From NCBI GenBank assembly GCA_021795465.1, contig JAJYPK010000014.1:1-38287 (forward strand): 38,287 nt of DNA. Direction: 5' to 3'. The number at the start of each line of letters is the position of its first letter. Position 1 is the stretch's first letter. Positions 5,260-33,505 of this stretch are shown here, piece after piece. The position numbers were made by a program, and so were the translations under genes. Below the pieces are notes generated by a model. It did no database searches. It worked only from the letters and a program-made list of their open reading frames with translations, and had not been told where the DNA came from. This DNA comes from Bacillota bacterium (GTDB lineage: Bacteria; Bacillota; Sulfobacillia; Sulfobacillales; Sulfobacillaceae).

Positions 5260-6465
5260 CTACTGATGGGGATGGATCATCGCGCGGTCTTTTACGGCTT
5301 CCGTCTTATTCGTCACTTCCCAGGGGAATAGCACATCGGTACGTCCGAAATGCCCATACGCCGCCGTGGGCAAATAGATGGGGCGTTGCAAATCGAGTTC
5401 GCGGATGATCGCCAATGGCCGCAAGTCAAAAACTTCTCGTACAATAGCCCCCAAGAGATCGTCGCCAATGACGCCCGTGCCAAAACTATTCACCATCACC
5501 GAAATCGGTTGAGCCATGCCTATGGCATAGGCAATCTGAATCTCGACGCGGTCTGCCAATTGAGCCGCAACCAGGTTTTTGGCAACCCACCGAGCGGCAT
5601 AGGACGCCGAGCGATCCACCTTGGTCGGATCTTTGCCAGAAAACGCTCCCCCTCCATGGCGTGCGTATCCCCCGTAGGTATCGACAATAATCTTACGACC
5701 GGTGAGCCCCGAATCGCCATGGGGGCCTCCCACCACAAAGCGACCGGTAGGATTGGTCAGAATCCGGGTCTCTTTGGTGAGCCATCCGCCGGGCTCCATA
5801 ACCGGCCTAATAACCTCATCATATAAGGCCTCTCGCAAAGTAGCTTGGGAAACTTCTTGATTGTGTTGGGCCGAAATGAGCACGGTATCCACGGCTGACG
5901 GCCGGCCATTCTGATAGCGTACAGTGACTTGGGTTTTTCCATCGGGCCAAAGAAAAGGCACCCGGTCCTGCTTACGCACCTCGGCCAACCGATAGGAGAG
6001 CCGATGGGCCAACGCAATCGGAAGGGGCATCAGTTCCGGTGTTTCGTTACACGCATAGCCAAAGACCATCCCCTGATCCCCCGCACCGATGCTCCCCATG
6101 TCTTCTTCCGAGTTGGTACCCTCGGCTTCGAAGGCATGGTCAACCCCTTGAGCGATGTCCGGCGATTGTTCATCGATTGAGGTGAGCACGGACACGGTAT
6201 CCGCATCAAAACCCATCTTCGCCCGCGTGTATCCGATGTCACGAATTGTGTCACGCACCACGCGGGGAATGTCCACGTAGCAGGACGTGGAGATCTCGCC
6301 CACTACGAGAGCCATTCCGGTGGTGACGACCGTTTCCGCGGCAACACGGGCTAAACTATCCTCCGCTAAAATGTGGTCTAAAATGGCGTCCGAAATCTGG
6401 TCCGCTACCTTATCCGGGTGACCTTCGGTCACCGACTCCGATGTAAACAAAAATTCCAGAGACAC
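5260..6465 (-). CDS. metK: S-adenosylmethionine synthase
   Basis: This 401-residue enzyme makes S-adenosylmethionine from methionine and ATP. Diagnostic motifs are [17 protein letters not shown] near the N terminus, [12 protein letters not shown] in the middle, and [17 protein letters not shown] (glycine-rich P-loop-like) near residue 275. Length and ends match the family. The start is GTG after GGGGAGGGC. Expression is very likely controlled by the SAM-I riboswitch immediately upstream, from a consensus sigma-A promoter. Confidence 0.97.
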
Positions 6466-6487: not shown

Positions 6488-6633
6488 AAAAAATCCCCTT
6501 CTCAGCGCGAGAGAAGAGGTATCACCTTACTCTCTCATCCTTCCCCCAAAGCTTGGGGGTCGGGTGTGGCACCGTGGCTTACGCCGGTTGCCGGGCTTCA
6601 TCGGGCCTGTCCCTCCGCCGCTCTTGATAAGAG
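6488..6633 (-). promoter_or_regulatory. SAM-I (S-box) riboswitch with terminator/antiterminator
   Basis: Read on the minus strand, the leader carries the S-box core: CTCTTATCAAGAG (6633-6621), GGCGGAGGGA, GATGAAGCCCGGCAACC, GGTGCCA, and the closing strand GATGAGAG. P1 pairs CTCTTATC with GATGAGAG (8 bp, one G-U). The expression platform follows: a 9-bp terminator stem (6511-6519 with 6495-6503, one G-U) and six T residues (6493-6488). A competing antiterminator can form between GAGAGAG/AAGGT of the P1 side and ACCT/CTTCTCTC of the terminator. With SAM bound, P1 forms and transcription stops before metK. This is a classic OFF switch. Confidence 0.95.
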
Positions 6634-24852: not shown

Positions 24853-26829
24853 CTAGTTAGATCCCCCCTGACTCGCTAAAAAGAGTTTGAAAAACTCTGG
24901 ATTGCTACGGGTCCGCTTCAAGTTATGCAAGAGGAGTTCCGTTGCTTCAGGAGTGTTGAGGTTATGCACCGCTTTACGAACCAACCACACCACTTCTAAC
25001 TCTTCGGCCGACATCAATAGGTCTTCGCGTCGGGTTCCCGATCGCTTGATATCCACCGCCGGAAACGTACGACGTTCTGCGAGCTTACGGTCTAGATGGA
25101 GTTCCATATTGCCGGTACCTTTAAATTCTTCGTAGATCACGTCATCCATGCGAGAACCCGTGTCGATTAATGCCGTAGCCAAAATCGTCAGGCTCCCACC
25201 CTCTTCAACTTTCCGTGCAGCCCCAAAAAATCTCTTGGGTTTATGCAAAGCGGCAGGATCCATCCCCCCCGACAATGTGCGTCCCGACGCCGGGATGGTG
25301 AGGTTATAAGCCCTTGCAAGACGTGTAATGGAATCGAGTAAGATCACGACATCTTTGCCCATCTCTACCAGCCGCTTGGCCCGTTCCAGCACCATTTCTG
25401 CGACGCGTATATGGTCTTCGGGGGGTTCATCAAAAGTCGAGCTCGCCACCTCACCCCGAACCGATCGTTGCATATCGGTCACTTCTTCCGGGCGTTCGTC
25501 AATTAAAAGCACCATCAGATGGGCTTCGGGATCGTTTTGAGAAATGGCATTGGCCAACTTTTTTAGCAGAACTGTCTTCCCCGCCTTAGGCGGTGCAACC
25601 ACCAATCCCCGTTGCCCACGACCAATTGGGGCGATGATATCGACGAGTCGGGTCGCCAACTCATCGCGACCGGTTTCCAAATGAAATCGGGAATTTGGGA
25701 AAATCGGGGTCAGTCCGTCAAAATCTGGGCGCTCGGCGGATTGTTCGGGACTTAGCCCGTTGACAGCCTCCACCCGCAACAGCGCAAAATAGCGCTCACC
25801 TTCTTTAGGAGGTCGGGCCTGACCGGATACCTGGTCGCCCGATCGCAAGTCAAATCGCCGAATTTGAGACGCAGAGACGTAGACATCTTCGCGCGACCGT
25901 TGAAAGTCCGTCGGACGCAAGAAGCCATAGTCGCCAATCACATCGAGCAAACCTTGGGCGAAGATAAATCCATCTTGGTGCGTACGTGCTCGGAGAATTT
26001 CCCAGATAAGTTCCGCTTTGCGGTAAGAACGGAAATTTTCGATATTCAGGGTTCGAGCCAGTTTATAGAGGTCCAACAACGTCATGGCGTCTAATTGTGC
26101 CATGGTCAGTTGTGGTTCGCGATTACTCTTCGGTGGAAGGTCGCGACGGTTCGTACTGGGTGTCGGTGCCCCATTGGTACTAGGTCGGCCATTGCGATAC
26201 GGTTGGGAGGCCGGTTGCGGCCCGGGAGGTCCTGGTCGACGTGGTGCCTGATTCGGTGTTGGTCTTGGGGATGTTCGGTCACGATGCGCAGGAGGAGCCG
26301 TACGCGTATCGGCCAGCCGAGCCGGCAATGCCGAACTCTCCGTTTTTTGCGGAGTTTTTACTGGGTATGGCATCGGCGATGCCACATCAACCTCAAGCGG
26401 AGGGGGTTCTTTGGGCCCTGTGGTGACCTCCCGATTGGGCGTCGGTTCATGGTTAATCGCCACGCTGGGCTCGGGGTTGGTGGTCTCTTTGGGACTCTCG
26501 ACCGCTTCGGCTGGGTTGGCCTCCTGCGAGGTCTTTTTTGATGACGCACGCGTTTTCCGGGGGGTCTTCCCTGATTTTGGTTCCGCCACCTTCTGCTCTG
26601 CGTCTTTAGCGGGCTGCTCGCTAGGTTCGACGACCTCCGTCACCAAAGACTTGGCGCTGGCAGTTTTACGAGGTTTGCGGTTAGACTTCGGTGTCGGTGC
26701 CGATGTTGCCTCTTTGGGTGGCAACACCTCAGGCGTCGTGGTAGCGTCCTCTTTTTTGCGAGATGGCTTCCTTTTACGTGTTTTTGGTTCTGTAACAATC
26801 ATGCCTTCTGGGTTTTCTTCACCGGCCAT
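24853..26829 (-). CDS. rho: Transcription termination factor Rho with long N-terminal extension
   Basis: This is a 658-residue Rho, about 230 longer than E. coli Rho. Residues 1-240 are low-complexity and rich in Lys, Pro, Thr, Ser and Arg. Then come the Rho N domain (about 246-282, [21 protein letters not shown]), the RNA-binding cold-shock-like fold (about 295-360) and the ATPase: Walker A PPKAGKT at 413-419, [26 protein letters not shown]. Rho is a hexameric helicase that ends untranslated transcripts. The ATG follows AGGAGG at 12 bases, a longish spacing. It lies 24 bases after glpX. Confidence 0.97.
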
Positions 26830-26853
26830 GAATCAAGAATGCCTCCTATCTAT

Positions 26854-27822
26854 CTAGACACGCTTTCCGTTGGTTTTCTTCAAATCGTTGTGGTGATCCG
26901 CGGTGACATACCGCACCGTTCCGGTTAACGACCGCATCACCACGGAATGCGTTGTCGAATACAATGACCCATACCGCACGCCTTTTAGGAGATCCCCATC
27001 GGTAATTCCGGTGGCTACATATATCACATCGTCGCCTTCTACCAAATCGTCGAGGCTCAGCACACGGGTCGGTTCGGTAATGCCCATGCTCCGCATCCGT
27101 TCTGTTTGCTGTTCGTTTTCAGGTTTCAGGCGAGCCTTCATTTCCCCACCCAAGCACTTCACCGCAGCCGCTGCAATAACTCCTTCGGGTGCTCCCCCCA
27201 GGCCAATCAGCATATCCACGCCAGAATCCGAAACACAGGCGGCTACCGCAGGCGATACATCCCCATCCGTGATGAGTTTAATACGAGCTCCGGCATCACG
27301 GATTTGTTCTATCAGGGCGCGGTGCCGATCACGATCCAGCACCACCACTGTCAAGTCTGTAACGTCCTTGTTAGATGACCGCGCAAGACGTTTTAAGTTC
27401 TCGGCTACAGGAGCGTCGAGGTCGATACAACCGAGCCCGGCGGGACCCGTCACAATCTTTTCCATGTACATATCTGGTGCATGCAACAGGCGACCCCGTG
27501 GTGCTACAGCCATCACCGCAATGGCGCCCGGTGAACCTTTAGCGACTAAATTGGTCCCTTCCAAAGGATCGACGGCAATATCCACGGGGTCACCCGTACC
27601 CGCGCCGATATGCTCACCGATATACAACATTGGAGCCTCATCCAGCTCCCCTTCTCCAATGACCACGGTTCCTTGAATGTTGACGGTGTCCAGCATGGAT
27701 CGCATGGCGTCAACCGCCAACTGGTCCGCACCATTTTTATCCCCTCGACCCATGAGACGGCCTGCGGCAAGCGCTGCAGCCTCAGTGACTCGAACAAATT
27801 CCAGCGCTAATTCGCGCTCCAT
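26854..27822 (-). CDS. glpX: Class II fructose-1,6-bisphosphatase
   Basis: This 322-residue enzyme converts fructose 1,6-bisphosphate to fructose 6-phosphate in gluconeogenesis. GlpX hallmarks are VVIGEGELDEAPML, IAVDPLEGTNLVAKG (metal binding), APDMYMEKIVTG and the C-terminal segment with ATGITDGDLLKGVRY. The ATG at 27822 was chosen because GGGAGG lies 8 bases upstream and the length equals the Bacillus protein. A start five codons earlier would sit on the ribosome binding site itself. It is followed by rho, as in B. subtilis. Confidence 0.97.
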   Translation of the reverse strand: MERELALEFVRVTEAAALAAGRLMGRGDKNGADQLAVDAMRSMLDTVNIQGTVVIGEGELDEAPMLYIGEHIGAGTGDPVDIAVDPLEGTNLVAKGSPGAIAVMAVAPRGRLLHAPDMYMEKIVTGPAGLGCIDLDAPVAENLKRLARSSNKDVTDLTVVVLDRDRHRALIEQIRDAGARIKLITDGDVSPAVAACVSDSGVDMLIGLGGAPEGVIAAAAVKCLGGEMKARLKPENEQQTERMRSMGITEPTRVLSLDDLVEGDDVIYVATGITDGDLLKGVRYGSLYSTTHSVVMRSLTGTVRYVTADHHNDLKKTNGKRV

Positions 27823-28112
27823 AGACGGTCCTCCCATATAGCTCGTACGGCGGCTTTCTTATCGAGGTGTATGACACGAACTGGTACGGGCAAACGCTCC
27901 ACGCCGTGCCGCGAATCGGGGCGCCAAAGTTTCCCAACGCCAATCTCCCGGATTGCTCCGGCCTTGGTGGCCGAGTATTTTCCAAACTCTCGAACCCGAA
28001 CATATTGTCGCCAGGCTCGTGGTTTCTGCGGAAAATTGGCTCGCTTTGGCTTTTTTTTGAATCCTTGAGAGGTGTGTCGATAGTGTGTCCAACTTTTATA
28101 GTACCTAGTCAA
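27807..28112 (-). CDS. Possible small basic protein upstream of glpX (doubtful)
   Basis: A 101-codon minus-strand frame fills most of the gap before glpX and overlaps the glpX start by 16 bases. The product would be very basic, with Lys/Arg-rich first third and a segment RVREFGKYSATKAGAIREIG. The start would be TTG with no ribosome binding site, and other frames here are also open, so coding is doubtful. I recognise no family. Confidence 0.25.
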   Translation of the reverse strand: MTRYYKSWTHYRHTSQGFKKKPKRANFPQKPRAWRQYVRVREFGKYSATKAGAIREIGVGKLWRPDSRHGVERLPVPVRVIHLDKKAAVRAIWEDRLWSAN

Positions 28113-28169
28113 CTACATAAATTTTGATCGCGCATGCATAGTAGCACATCTTCCGCAAAATAACAAGAA
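27823..28169 (-). other. Leader region upstream of glpX
   Basis: This 347-base gap between glpX and the receiver gene has a promoter near its upstream end (28138-28166). If that is the only promoter, glpX has a leader of about 310 bases. Apart from the doubtful frame at 27807-28112, I see no gene and no textbook riboswitch. Confidence 0.5.
28138..28166 (-). promoter_or_regulatory. Sigma-A-type promoter upstream of glpX-rho
   Basis: On the minus strand TTGTTA (28166-28161) and TACTAT (28143-28138) are 17 bases apart, immediately after the receiver gene. Transcription would start near 28131. Confidence 0.55.
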
Positions 28170-28571
28170 TTATCCCGTCGTCCCATCCACGGGTCTTGTC
28201 GGCATCTCGGATTGAGTTGCCAACGTTTTTTCGATACTCCCAATCCATAGTTGGAGTTCCTTGAGTTTGAACGGTTTGGTCCATCGATGAACTCTAGGAG
28301 GCCAAGTGGACATTGACGACAAATCCCCCGACATCACCGCCACTTGGCATCGAGGAGCGGCGATCATAAATTCCGCGAGCACATGTTGCGTGGATTCACC
28401 GGGAAGATTCCAATCAATGAGGAGCAACTCCGGGCTCGAACCGTTCAGATCAAATAACGCCTTGGTAAGCATTTTTCCAGAGGTATAGGTTATCACTTGA
28501 TGATCCGCACTTAAAACCTCATCGAGGATCTCTAAGAGACTCTCATTATCGTCTACCACCCAGATCTGCAT
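28170..28571 (-). CDS. Stand-alone receiver-domain response regulator
   Basis: This 133-residue protein is a receiver with no output domain. The acidic pair is in WVVDDNESLLEIL, the phospho-accepting Asp in LLLIDWNLPG, the Ser of VAVMSGD and the Lys of HRWTKPFKL complete the active site. It ends in a short polar tail. It could act in a phosphorelay, a place held in B. subtilis by Spo0F, which also lies upstream of glpX-rho, although sequence similarity to Spo0F beyond the fold is not obvious. The ATG follows GGAGG at 5 bases. A GTG two codons earlier is closer to it and less likely. Confidence 0.85.
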   Translation of the reverse strand: MQIWVVDDNESLLEILDEVLSADHQVITYTSGKMLTKALFDLNGSSPELLLIDWNLPGESTQHVLAEFMIAAPRCQVAVMSGDLSSMSTWPPRVHRWTKPFKLKELQLWIGSIEKTLATQSEMPTRPVDGTTG

Positions 28572-28627
28572 GCGCACCTCCTCCTTCCCCTACATTCCCC
28601 ACATTGGCCAAAAAATCCTGCTACATC

Positions 28628-28643
28628 GTTACGATTTTGTAAC
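28628..28643 (+). promoter_or_regulatory. Small inverted repeat before htrA
   Basis: GTTAC (28628-28632) and GTAAC (28639-28643) form a 16-base dyad 48 bases before the htrA ATG. A weak -10-like TAGACT lies downstream at 28655-28660. It could be an operator, but the repeat is short. Confidence 0.25.
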
Positions 28644-28690
28644 AAATTCAGGCTAGACTACAACCACTATGATTAAAGGAGGCAGCTCTG

Positions 28691-29890
28691 ATGCACCCGT
28701 TCACCAAAACTTTAAGCAGTGCGATACTCGGCTTCGCCGTGGGAGCTGGCGCGGTAGGAGGAGGCATTTTCGCCTATCATGATATTGTTCCACCGACGCA
28801 AAACCAAGGTAGCCAGGCGAGTGGGCCTTACGCCAAGGTGGCCACCTACACTCCGCCGACGATAGCCATCGGGCCTAGCACGGTCTCTAATGTGGTCAAG
28901 AGAGATGGCGGCGCGGTGGTAAAAATTGTAGCGACGGTACCGGCATCTAGTTCGTCTTCGTCGTCCCCGTATTTTAATCCCTTTTATGGTTCAATTTTCG
29001 GTAACAATGCGCCCCAAACCAGTGCCCAGACCGATATTGGATCCGGATTCTTCTTTAACAGCAAAGGCTACCTGATTACCAACGACCACGTCATCCACGG
29101 CGCAAATAATATTCAAGTGTACGTTCCGGGATACTCTAAGCCATTTCGCGCCACCCGGGTTGGAACCGACTATGCCACCGACCTGGCGGTGCTGAAGATT
29201 AATCCCCCCAAGCCCGTACCCTCCTTGGTACTTGGCAACTCGAATAGCACTCCGGTCGGTGCCTGGGATATTGCGATTGGAAACCCCTATAACCTCAGTC
29301 ATACGGTCACCGTGGGGGTGGTGAGCGCCAAGGGACGTCCGTTGACCATTGGCAGCCGAAACTACAAAAACTTGTTGCAAACTTCGGCCGCCATCAATCC
29401 TGGCAATAGCGGCGGTCCGCTCTTGAACCTGGCGGGTCAAGTAATCGGCATTAACACCGCCGTCTCCACCCAAGGTCAAGGCATTGGATTTGCCATTCCT
29501 ACCTCGACGGTAGAAAAGATCTTGCCGCAACTAATGAAAAACGGGCATGTCACCCGTCCCTGGATGGGCGTCTTTATCGCGACGGATTCCCAAGCCATGG
29601 CGCAACACTTTGGTCTAAAAACCTCGACCGGCGTTGTCATCGCCTATGTAGAGCCGCAGAGTCCGGCCGCCAAGGCGGGTCTGGCCACGGGAGACGTCAT
29701 TACGGCCGTGAACGGCACCGCCGTATCTCGTGCGAGCAATCTCAAATCCATGATCGATAAACTCACCGTAGGCACTAACGTCCACGTTACCGTCAATGAC
29801 CAAGGCCATACCATAACCAAGACCGTTACCTTGGGCCAAGAACCCAACGGCCCGATTACGGTCCCATCGAATGCTGGTCTTGGGGGATAG
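28691..29890 (+). CDS. HtrA/DegP-type membrane-anchored serine protease with PDZ domain
   Basis: This 399-residue protein has an N-terminal membrane anchor (about 9-29), a Ser/Pro-rich linker, a trypsin-like S1C domain (about 65-285) and one PDZ domain (about 290-385). The catalytic triad is intact: H133 in TNDHVIHG, D164 in YATDLAVLKI and S240 in GNSGGPLL. It should degrade misfolded proteins outside the membrane. The ATG follows AAAGGAGG at 8 bases. It is divergent from the receiver gene, with about 120 bases between them. Confidence 0.95.
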   Translation: MHPFTKTLSSAILGFAVGAGAVGGGIFAYHDIVPPTQNQGSQASGPYAKVATYTPPTIAIGPSTVSNVVKRDGGAVVKIVATVPASSSSSSSPYFNPFYGSIFGNNAPQTSAQTDIGSGFFFNSKGYLITNDHVIHGANNIQVYVPGYSKPFRATRVGTDYATDLAVLKINPPKPVPSLVLGNSNSTPVGAWDIAIGNPYNLSHTVTVGVVSAKGRPLTIGSRNYKNLLQTSAAINPGNSGGPLLNLAGQVIGINTAVSTQGQGIGFAIPTSTVEKILPQLMKNGHVTRPWMGVFIATDSQAMAQHFGLKTSTGVVIAYVEPQSPAAKAGLATGDVITAVNGTAVSRASNLKSMIDKLTVGTNVHVTVNDQGHTITKTVTLGQEPNGPITVPSNAGLGG

Positions 29891-29924
29891 AGAGCGCGGC
29901 TTCGTGCCTAAAATTGTTCGTTCC

Positions 29925-29950
29925 AAGAGAGCCGCTACAGCGGCTCTCTT
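29925..29950. terminator. Shared hairpin between htrA and the acetyltransferase gene
   Basis: A 12-bp perfect inverted repeat (29925-29936 with 29939-29950) lies between two convergent genes. The stem ends in CTCTCTT, giving a T-rich arm on either strand, but no long T tract follows. It probably serves both genes. Confidence 0.6.
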
Positions 29951-29956
29951 CATGAT

Positions 29957-30412
29957 TTAAGGCCGAACTGGTTTTTCCATCTCATAACGCGTCACCTGAT
30001 ACCCATGCCGTTCATAAAGGCGGACCGCATTCAGATTGGATGCGGTCACATAGAGCCGCGCTACACTGAGTCCTTGTTGTTCTACAAAATCATGAGCCTT
30101 TTCCAATAAGAGTTTAGCCAGTCCTTGATGGCGGTAGGGTTCACATAAATAGACTTGGTCAATCGATCCGAAGGTTCCTTGCAGATCCATCCGAATCGCC
30201 ACCCAAATAAAGCCCACGAATTGGGTGTCGTCCTCCAAAATAAAGATCCCGTTCTCGAATGGCCGACGACCTGCCGAGCGCAGGCGCTGAGCCTGGTCCG
30301 CCAAAAATGCCGGGGTACATACGAAGCGTGGAAAGTTCAATTGGTATAAATCACATTGAGTACCCAATATCAACCGATAATCATGTTGAGGGCGATAGGC
30401 GCGCACGTGCAC
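29957..30412 (-). CDS. GNAT-family N-acetyltransferase
   Basis: This 151-residue protein is a single GNAT domain. The acetyl-CoA-binding motif A is YRHQGLAKLLLEKA, preceded by the strand IDQVYLCEP and followed by LYVTASNLNAVRLYERHGYQ, the usual motif B. The substrate is unknown. The start is GTG after AAGGAG at 8 bases. It converges on htrA and is next to the permease terminator. Confidence 0.9.
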   Translation of the reverse strand: MHVRAYRPQHDYRLILGTQCDLYQLNFPRFVCTPAFLADQAQRLRSAGRRPFENGIFILEDDTQFVGFIWVAIRMDLQGTFGSIDQVYLCEPYRHQGLAKLLLEKAHDFVEQQGLSVARLYVTASNLNAVRLYERHGYQVTRYEMEKPVRP

Positions 30413-30487
30413 TCTACTAACTCCTTCATTCGGAATCTAACGTTTTATTCTTCAGTCTGCCTATGTATGCGGCGCACGTCAACATGG

Positions 30488-30527
30488 AAAATAATTGAGG
30501 ACACGCCGAGTACCGGCGTGTCCTCAA
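30488..30527 (-). terminator. Terminator after the NCS1 permease
   Basis: A perfect 14-bp stem (30495-30508 with 30514-30527) with a 5-base loop is followed on the minus strand by TTATTTTCC. It lies 14 bases after the permease stop. Confidence 0.87.
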
Positions 30528-30541
30528 GACCTCTCGAATTG

Positions 30542-31930
30542 CTATGACTTGGTGATGTCGCGCCGAACCGTCCGCGTCCCAAGAACCCAATACAATAGGG
30601 CTGCCACCACAAAACTGACGTAATATGACAAGTCCCCAATCTGAGGGAATTGGTAGGCTATCGGTCCCGTGTACAGAGTCTGGTCGAAGAACGGAATCGA
30701 TACAATAATAGCCGCCAACCATGCAAAGAGCCCGGGCCGGATTACGCGGCGGGGGTCGTAAAATAGGTCGGTGGTGTATCGCCCCCGATGGACAACCAGA
30801 AAGTCGATGAGGACCACAGCCACCCATGGCGACAGCCAGTAGCCCAAAAGAAACAAAAAGTTCTCGAAGTCGGCATAATACGCTTGATGGGAATACAGTG
30901 CCAGAAAACCTCCCACAATTCCCACCAAAATTGCGGCCACCCATCGCTTGATCGGGATATTGACGACCAAAGCCGATAGCGATCCTGAATAGATATTGAG
31001 GACATTGGCCGTCACGGTTCCGATAATGACAGCTAGGAGTGTAACACTGACCAACCAATGGGGTTGAATGCCTGCAAGAAGGCTCATCGGGTTCGCTGAC
31101 ACCGCAGCCTTGGGAAACGCAATCGCCAGGGCCACCCCGACCAATTCGAGCCAAAGACATGCAATAAAATTCGAGCTGGCCGCATTCCAAAAAACCTTTT
31201 TGGATGGGGTCTTATGACTTAAATAGCGCGTGTAATCGGACGAAAACACCGTCCATCCCAGCAAATAAGAGAGTGCCAGCCCTGCTGCTTCAACCATAGC
31301 CCCCGACATACTTGGGTAAATCTTGGCGTTAAAAGCCAGATGATAATTGACGTGCGCGAAAGCGAAGAACGACACCCCGATAAACACTAACGTAAGAATT
31401 AGGGCCATAAATTTCTCGACGGCATGGATCATATTGTAGCCGTACACCGCGACCGCTACTTGAATGATCACCATGACCACCAACGCCACCACAAAACTGC
31501 TTCCGAATAAGGTTTCAAACGCAAAAGATCCGAGGACCGTATTGACGGCAAACCACATCACGCCGGCAATCATGTTCAAAAAACCCGGAATGAAGTTCCC
31601 CACGAATCCAAACGCCGCGCGAGAATGTACCATCTGAGGCACCCCAAGCCGCGGTCCGAACGTCGAAAGCAGCCCTAAAAGAGTGACACCAATCAGATTG
31701 CCAATTAAAAGCCCGATCGCGGCATCTGTGAAATTCAAACCAAAAAAAGCCACCGCAGCGACACCCGTCGTTAATGTCGCCAGTTCCACATTAGCCCCAA
31801 ACCATAATGTAAAGACCGATGATACCTTCCCATGACGCTCGTCTTCGCCAATGTGCTCAATGCCTTTAGGCTCGATGCGGATGACTTCATCCCCATATTG
31901 CATGGATTCTTGGTGTTCCGTGGCCGCCAC
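30542..31930 (-). CDS. NCS1-family nucleobase permease
   Basis: This 462-residue protein has about twelve membrane helices and belongs to the nucleobase-cation-symport-1 (purine-cytosine permease) family. Family segments include VSSVFTLWFGANVELATL at helix 1, FGFVGNFIPGFLN, and SSDYTRYL. These transporters bring in cytosine, purines, allantoin or hydantoins with protons or sodium. The operator upstream (two CCGAACAAT boxes) suggests purines, but the substrate cannot be read from the sequence. The start is GTG 8 bases after GGAGGTG. It is monocistronic, with a strong terminator. Confidence 0.92.
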   Translation of the reverse strand: MAATEHQESMQYGDEVIRIEPKGIEHIGEDERHGKVSSVFTLWFGANVELATLTTGVAAVAFFGLNFTDAAIGLLIGNLIGVTLLGLLSTFGPRLGVPQMVHSRAAFGFVGNFIPGFLNMIAGVMWFAVNTVLGSFAFETLFGSSFVVALVVMVIIQVAVAVYGYNMIHAVEKFMALILTLVFIGVSFFAFAHVNYHLAFNAKIYPSMSGAMVEAAGLALSYLLGWTVFSSDYTRYLSHKTPSKKVFWNAASSNFIACLWLELVGVALAIAFPKAAVSANPMSLLAGIQPHWLVSVTLLAVIIGTVTANVLNIYSGSLSALVVNIPIKRWVAAILVGIVGGFLALYSHQAYYADFENFLFLLGYWLSPWVAVVLIDFLVVHRGRYTTDLFYDPRRVIRPGLFAWLAAIIVSIPFFDQTLYTGPIAYQFPQIGDLSYYVSFVVAALLYWVLGTRTVRRDITKS

Positions 31931-31955
31931 TCTGCGCCACCTCCGTGTTCATTTA

Positions 31956-32000
31956 TTGTCCGAACAATTGCAAGTTAAATATAGTACATTGTTCGGGATC
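31956..32000 (-). promoter_or_regulatory. Paired PurR-like operator (PurBoxes)
   Basis: CCGAACAAT (31960-31968) and its exact inverted copy ATTGTTCGG (31988-31996) are 19 bases apart. The core matches the Gram-positive PurBox CCGAACWWT, which in B. subtilis occurs as inverted pairs bound by the PurR repressor. Flanking W positions match only partly. One box lies between the -35 and -10 of the permease promoter and the other just downstream of its start, which fits repression. Confidence 0.7.
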
Positions 32001-32007
32001 TAGTCAA
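31978..32007 (-). promoter_or_regulatory. Promoter of the NCS1 permease
   Basis: On the minus strand TTGACT (32007-32002) and TATATT (31983-31978) are 18 bases apart. Transcription would start near 31971, about 40 bases before the GTG start, within the operator pair. Confidence 0.65.
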
Positions 32008-32110
32008 TTTCTATTTGACACGATTCGAAGCGAACTAATGGGATGGAAGTTCCCGCGATAAAAAGGTATTATTAGGAAAAGTTCTTATTGCAAAGTGAGG
32101 AAAAGCCTAC

Positions 32111-33505
32111 ATGCGGTTAAACCCAAGTATCTTTCGAGAGTATGATTTGCGCGGGTTGGTGGATCAAGACATCCAACCTGAAGGCGTCGAACAACTGGGT
32201 AAAGCCTTTGGCACCTACCTACAGAATTTCGGCTTGACCGAATGCCTACTAGGATGGGATAGCCGGGCCTCGTCGCCCACCTATCGTGATGCGGTGACCC
32301 AAGGGTTGCTGGCGACAGGAATCCAAGTCATCGATATCGGTCAAGTGACCACCCCTATCTTTTATTTCGCCCGCGTCCATTACGGTATCGAAGGCGGCAT
32401 CATGATCACCGCCAGCCACAATCCCGCTGAGTATAACGGATTTAAACTGGCACGGGGCAAATCGACGATCTATGGTGAGGAAATCCAGGACGTTCGCCGT
32501 ATTTTCGAATCCGGCGAATTTCGCGTTGGAACCGGCGGGATCAAACACCAGGATCCGGTTCCCGTCTATCTTTCTATGTTGGCCGATAAGATTCACCTCG
32601 GACCACGATCTTTAAAGGTCGTGGTCGACGCTGGTAATGGGACCCCTGGTCTCTTTACCAAAGACGTCATGGAAGGCTCATTTAAACTGAAAGATCCGAC
32701 CTACCTCTATTGCACCCCGGACCCCACCTTCCCTCATCATCATCCCGATCCCGTAGTGGCCAAAAACTTAGTCGATCTGATTGCTACGGTAAAACGCGAG
32801 GGAGCGGACCTCGGCATCGCCTTTGACGGAGATGGGGACCGGATTGGAGTGGTGGACGAAGAAGGCAACGTGATTTGGGGCGATCGTCTCATGATCCTTT
32901 ATTGGCGCGAAATTCTCGCGAAACATCCCGGATCTCCAGCCATCATCGAAGTCAAATGCTCACAGACGCTGTACGACGAAGTTCAACGGTTGGGCGCCCG
33001 TCCCGAATTCTTTAAGACCGGACATTCCTTGATAAAAGCTCGCATGCGCGAACTCGACGCCGTGTTTACCGGGGAAATGAGTGGGCATATGTTTTTTGCC
33101 GACGAATACTACGGCTACGACGACGCGTTTTATGCCGCGGGACGCCTGTTACGGATTTTGTCCCATACGAATCAGCCCCTCTCCGCGCTCTTGGCGGATG
33201 TCCCGATGTTGCCGTCAACCCCAGAAGTCCGGATCGACTGTCCCGACGACCAAAAATCCCGTGTGGTGGCCACACTCTTAGCCCACTACCAGGCACGCCA
33301 AGACCTCACGGTCATTACCATTGATGGACTACGCGTGATCTTTCCTCATGGTTGGGGACTGATCCGCGCGTCCAACACCCAACCGGCTTTAGTGGCACGC
33401 GCGGAAGCCGACTCTCAATCCGCTCTGAGAGCAATTACGGAGGATCTCGCGCAGCAATTATCTCAATTCCCGTTTATTGGTCCCATTGATTGGGACGGAG
33501 AATAG
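32111..33505 (+). CDS. Phosphomannomutase/phosphoglucomutase
   Basis: This 464-residue alpha-D-phosphohexomutase moves phosphate between C1 and C6 of hexose phosphates. The N terminus FREYDLRGLV is typical. The phosphoserine S102 is in TASHNPAEYNG, the metal loop D239-G-D-G-D-R is intact, and the sugar loop reads GEMSGHMFF. The GEMSGH loop is typical of the bifunctional PMM/PGM subgroup, so both mannose and glucose phosphates are likely substrates. The ATG follows GAGG at about 10 bases. The promoter is unclear, though a TTGACA occurs at 32015. Confidence 0.95.
   Translation: MRLNPSIFREYDLRGLVDQDIQPEGVEQLGKAFGTYLQNFGLTECLLGWDSRASSPTYRDAVTQGLLATGIQVIDIGQVTTPIFYFARVHYGIEGGIMITASHNPAEYNGFKLARGKSTIYGEEIQDVRRIFESGEFRVGTGGIKHQDPVPVYLSMLADKIHLGPRSLKVVVDAGNGTPGLFTKDVMEGSFKLKDPTYLYCTPDPTFPHHHPDPVVAKNLVDLIATVKREGADLGIAFDGDGDRIGVVDEEGNVIWGDRLMILYWREILAKHPGSPAIIEVKCSQTLYDEVQRLGARPEFFKTGHSLIKARMRELDAVFTGEMSGHMFFADEYYGYDDAFYAAGRLLRILSHTNQPLSALLADVPMLPSTPEVRIDCPDDQKSRVVATLLAHYQARQDLTVITIDGLRVIFPHGWGLIRASNTQPALVARAEADSQSALRAITEDLAQQLSQFPFIGPIDWDGE

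Follow-up and report, generated by a model that had tools for sequence, protein, structure and literature searches.

The PurR regulon of Bacillus subtilis comprises the purE operon, purA, pbuG, pbuO, xpt-pbuX, guaC, glyA, nusB-folD and purR. A spacer of 16-17 bp has been published between the 14-bp PurBoxes of this system, in which repression by PurR is relieved by PRPP and is also favoured by high ppGpp (PMC8789054).

In the window, i.e. the whole 38,287-nt stretch of DNA analyzed here, two exact copies of the 9-mer CCGAACAAT face each other across 19 bases upstream of a gene encoding an NCS1-family permease (Table 1). They are located precisely where the initial annotation had placed them (window 31956-32007), and its assignment of one box to the promoter spacer and of the other to the region just past the start site agrees with the promoter scan, the predicted promoter giving an expected transcription start at about 31971. 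The sequence comparisons described below make it highly probable that the facing boxes constitute a canonical two-box operator for a B. subtilis-type PurR, which would control the permease gene, and that this gene and the operon purB-C-Q-L-F-M-H-D make up the visible PurR regulon.

Table 1. Features of the permease promoter region (window coordinates) and of the associated purB and purR loci
Feature	Position	Strand	Remarks
PurBox A, CGAA-centred 14-mer TTGTCCGAACAATT	31956-31969	+	core CCGAACAAT at 31960-31968; just past the expected permease start
Spacer separating the 14-bp boxes, 17 bp	31970-31986	.	holds the -10 hexamer
PurBox B, inverted	31987-32000	-	core CCGAACAAT at 31988-31996; between the -35 and -10 hexamers of the permease promoter
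-10 hexamer TATATT, permease promoter	31983-31978	-	18 nt from TTGACT; register relative to the boxes kept in most relatives
-35 hexamer TTGACT, permease promoter	32007-32002	-	promoter scan
NCS1-family permease gene (462 aa, PF02133)	30542-31930	-	target gene
Phosphoglucomutase/phosphomannomutase gene	32111-33505	+	divergent; boxes approximately 114 bp from the gene start
purB operator, 37-bp geometry	C71:18679-18715		7 bp before purB; 2 mismatches
PurR gene of the genome	L010 886-1728	-	

A lone CCGAACAAT is unremarkable, since exact copies also occur at 25740 (-) and 35186 (+) and, with one mismatch allowed, the window holds 12 matches against 11.75 expected. The chance expectation for a facing exact pair at any gap of 10-30 is approximately 1e-5 per window, and facing pairs were absent from 300 shuffled windows. 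The bases preceding the two cores are TTGT and GATC, each of which departs twice from AWWW; the box flanks also differ from relative to relative, so that the A/T flank consensus of B. subtilis is met in part. The initial annotation had regarded the spacing as slightly wider than that of B. subtilis, a doubt that reflects a difference in measuring frame. The published spacer is measured between 14-bp boxes and the 9-mer frame adds two bases, and therefore the 19-base gap of the window is canonical. In the 9-mer frame, 54 of 80 purE loci from Bacillus and its relatives have a gap of 18 and 12 a gap of 19; a further 12 lack a clear pair and 2 have another gap. These loci were obtained with a Bacillus PurE query whose identity is supported by its 98% match to B. 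spizizenii.

Throughout the 3.58-Mb genome, pairs with a 19-base gap and at most three mismatches were found at 6 sites (0 for the reversed control). Just two of these had fewer than three mismatches, namely the window site with none and the purB site with two. The gene purB heads a de novo purine synthesis operon, whose genes purB-C-Q-L-F-M-H-D were confirmed, and guaA and hpt are located close by. The scan for paired boxes proposed in the initial annotation thus has its second good site next to purine genes, and the pair is not confined to the permease promoter. None of the five further NCS1 paralogues found in the genome is among the good operator sites. The four sites with three mismatches (on contigs C83, C128, C166 and C230), two of which are placed inside ORFs, do not match the quality of the main two and were rejected. 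The same applies to the looser pattern CCGAAC-N15-40-GTTCGG (12 sites versus 10 in the control), whose matches beyond the two real ones are mostly GC-rich and were left uncounted, and to a GC-rich one-mismatch core match at C67:15577 that precedes a gene for a putative solute-binding lipoprotein.

The genome encodes a single PuR_N protein (PF09182, 83 bits, E 3.8e-23), composed of the PuR_N winged helix and a phosphoribosyltransferase domain, as had been anticipated for a PurR homologue. It scores above the curated cut-off of TIGR01743 (276 versus 258.7 bits), and its best match among solved structures is PurR of B. subtilis (1P4A, 7RMW), with 44% identity. The helix-turn-helix stretches of the two proteins are closely similar (AKSTLSEDLLLI in the genome and AKSSISEDLTII in B. 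subtilis), and the core of the PRPP loop, DDFMKAGGT, is identical. Together with the purB operator, this homologue supports the earlier proposal that a PurR probably acts in this lineage. No PurBox pair was seen at the genome's own purR.

Comparison with relatives, which are not independent samples, revealed the pair upstream of 29 of 30 permease orthologues (59-100% identical), with a gap of 19 in 27 and of 20 in two of them, and a gap-19 pair at 27 of 30 purB promoters; none of 90 shuffled upstream regions contained a gap-19 pair with five or fewer mismatches. The boxes are kept while the spacer largely varies; the exception is a hexamer resembling a -10 element, which lies +13 to +15 from the first box. 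This hexamer occupies the same position between the boxes in most sites of both the permease and the purB groups, and a -35 hexamer, clear in most sites, is found at -9 to -11. As the register is common to both groups, the operator brackets the core promoter. At class level, a permease with 51% identity (G047) has a pair with a gap of 18 just upstream, and in other lineages of the class pairs are found before purE in G053, before purC and a nucleoside hydrolase gene in G037, and before purR itself in G059. The G037 pair (L030 1501-1537; G037:C157:9862-9898) has a purC-like gene on one side and a divergently oriented inosine-uridine nucleoside hydrolase gene on the other, and perhaps serves both. 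The G059 pair (L019 1501-1537; G059:C251:9093-9129), placed directly before purR, suggests autoregulation of PurR in that relative but not in the genome of the window.

Within the family, nearly all relatives have a PurR-sized match to TIGR01743. There is none in G009 and G017, both members of genus g9 (97 and 96% complete; loci L193, L197 and L077), whose purB genes carry no boxes. G017 is also the sole permease orthologue of the 30 with no pair upstream, and the box test at the permease in this genus rests on it, as no permease match was found in G009. Genus g9 has apparently lost the PurR regulon and, being without PurR and both box sets, represents a natural control, although this contrast is that of one genus and one evolutionary event. 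Two further genomes deviate: G035 has a PurR, yet no pair directly before purB, and G021, the opposite exception, has both operators and no PurR found in its 94% complete draft, while its genus-mates have one. The PurR gene, the shared purB operator, the conserved pair and its absence where PurR was lost all support the initial reading of the boxes as a PurR-type operator.

According to the mechanism proposed by analogy with B. subtilis, PurR dimers would occupy both boxes when purines are plentiful and PRPP is low in relation to ppGpp. Since the boxes bracket the -10 hexamer, direct occlusion is the simplest reading, i.e. bound PurR would block RNA polymerase. PRPP would then free PurR, expression of the permease and of purine synthesis genes would rise together, and the permease would most likely serve salvage by importing a purine or purine derivative.

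The permease matches PF02133 over its full length (161 bits against a cut-off of 23.5) and does not reach the cut-off of any NCBIfam NCS1 subfamily model tried (TIGR00800, CytX, CodB and allantoin permease), the scores being 144 against 353, 128 against 310, and lower for the rest. The nearest solved structure in a profile search is the hydantoin permease Mhp1 (E 7.6e-9); a single-sequence search of the PDB gave no match. A 65%-identical paralogue in G025 (L219, G025:C74:22000-38000) is located among purine salvage and degradation genes encoding adenosine deaminase, guanine deaminase, an allantoinase-like protein, formate-THF ligase and FolD; this locus has no PurBox pair, but does include a borderline match to the glycine riboswitch, its score right at the threshold (L219 7326-7410). 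Membership in the PurR regulon and the purine-gene neighbours of this paralogue favour a purine or purine derivative as the likeliest cargo, which is reasonably probable and cannot be put more firmly because PurR regulons hold other functions and NCS1 substrates are unreadable from sequence. The alternative that the operator is real while the permease carries a non-purine substrate, e.g. a pyrimidine, hydroxymethylpyrimidine or a cofactor precursor with ties to purine or one-carbon metabolism, is possible but the less likely of the two: the B. subtilis PurR regulon includes such non-purine functions as steT, pycA, glyA, folD and pdxST (PMC8789054), sequence is a poor guide to the substrate of NCS1 proteins (PMC11633122), and the permease does score on the CytX and NCS1 models, albeit far under their cut-offs, whereas the setting of the G025 paralogue among purine genes and the lack of a thiamin riboswitch in the window argue against it. 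The Rfam scan of the window likewise revealed no purine riboswitch. The scan identified a SAM riboswitch (RF00162, 92.9 bits) at 6532-6633 (-), upstream of an S-adenosylmethionine synthetase gene (5260-6465).

The divergent phosphoglucomutase/phosphomannomutase gene is probably not the main target of the operator. That the boxes chiefly serve this gene instead of the permease gene appears very unlikely. In favour of this reading, the boxes overlap a weak promoter-like match on the + strand, and some members of the related family f2 have the pair closer to the phosphomannomutase gene than to the permease. In most relatives, however, the boxes keep a locked register with the permease -35 and -10 hexamers, and where another ORF is the nearest divergent one (L223, L037 and L038) the operator has remained beside the permease. 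The surrounding region (approx. 24853-33505) encodes Rho, a GlpX-type phosphatase, a response regulator, an HtrA protease, a GNAT acetyltransferase, the permease and the phosphomannomutase; this gene order, from Rho to the phosphomannomutase, is mostly kept in several relatives (L218, L220, L221 and L223) and has no evident link to purines. Binding of another regulator, e.g. a GntR- or TetR-type repressor, to a palindrome that resembles PurBoxes by coincidence is the least credible reading, for although box A by itself is a near-dyad (ATTGTCCGAACAAT) of the form used by many dimeric repressors, the identical geometry recurs on the de novo purine operon of the same genome, the CGAA cores and the spacing are those of Bacillus purE operators, and the boxes are missing from the genus without PurR.

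The highly probable control of the permease gene by PurR extends the known PurR regulon by an uncharacterised NCS1 transporter, which is a sound and fairly ordinary addition. It places the PurR-PRPP switch in a deep lineage and gives a transporter outside the named NCS1 subfamilies a testable physiological role, the same role being predicted for its orthologues across the family. Within the collection of papers searched, no text mentions both Sulfobacillus and PurR. We lean slightly towards a broader view, in which PurR of this class controls a distinct, uncharacterised NCS1 branch devoted to purine salvage. Such a link would be ancient (visible at 51% permease identity) and absent from the B. 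subtilis regulon list, and at both transporter and purine-synthesis promoters the operator would keep a mostly constant register around the -10 hexamer.

The described system shares with the PurR-PurBox regulon of B. subtilis the inverted CGAA-cored boxes with a spacer of 16-17 bp, an orthologous member of the PurR family, and the control of de novo purine synthesis alongside base permeases. The two differ in the permease controlled, which here belongs to the NCS1 family, whereas those of the B. subtilis regulon are pbuG, pbuO and pbuX, and in the size of the visible regulon, which is small (two operons) and, unlike that of B. subtilis, does not include a box pair at its own purR. They also differ in the placement of the boxes, which bracket the -10 hexamer here and lie just upstream of the -35 at the B. 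subtilis pur operon (PMC8789054). With the Mhp1/NCS1 family the permease has the full-length PF02133 domain in common, while remaining below every NCBIfam NCS1 cut-off; among the NCS1 proteins of Bacillus spizizenii the nearest is only 32% identical to it, and no PurBox pair precedes the gene of that protein.
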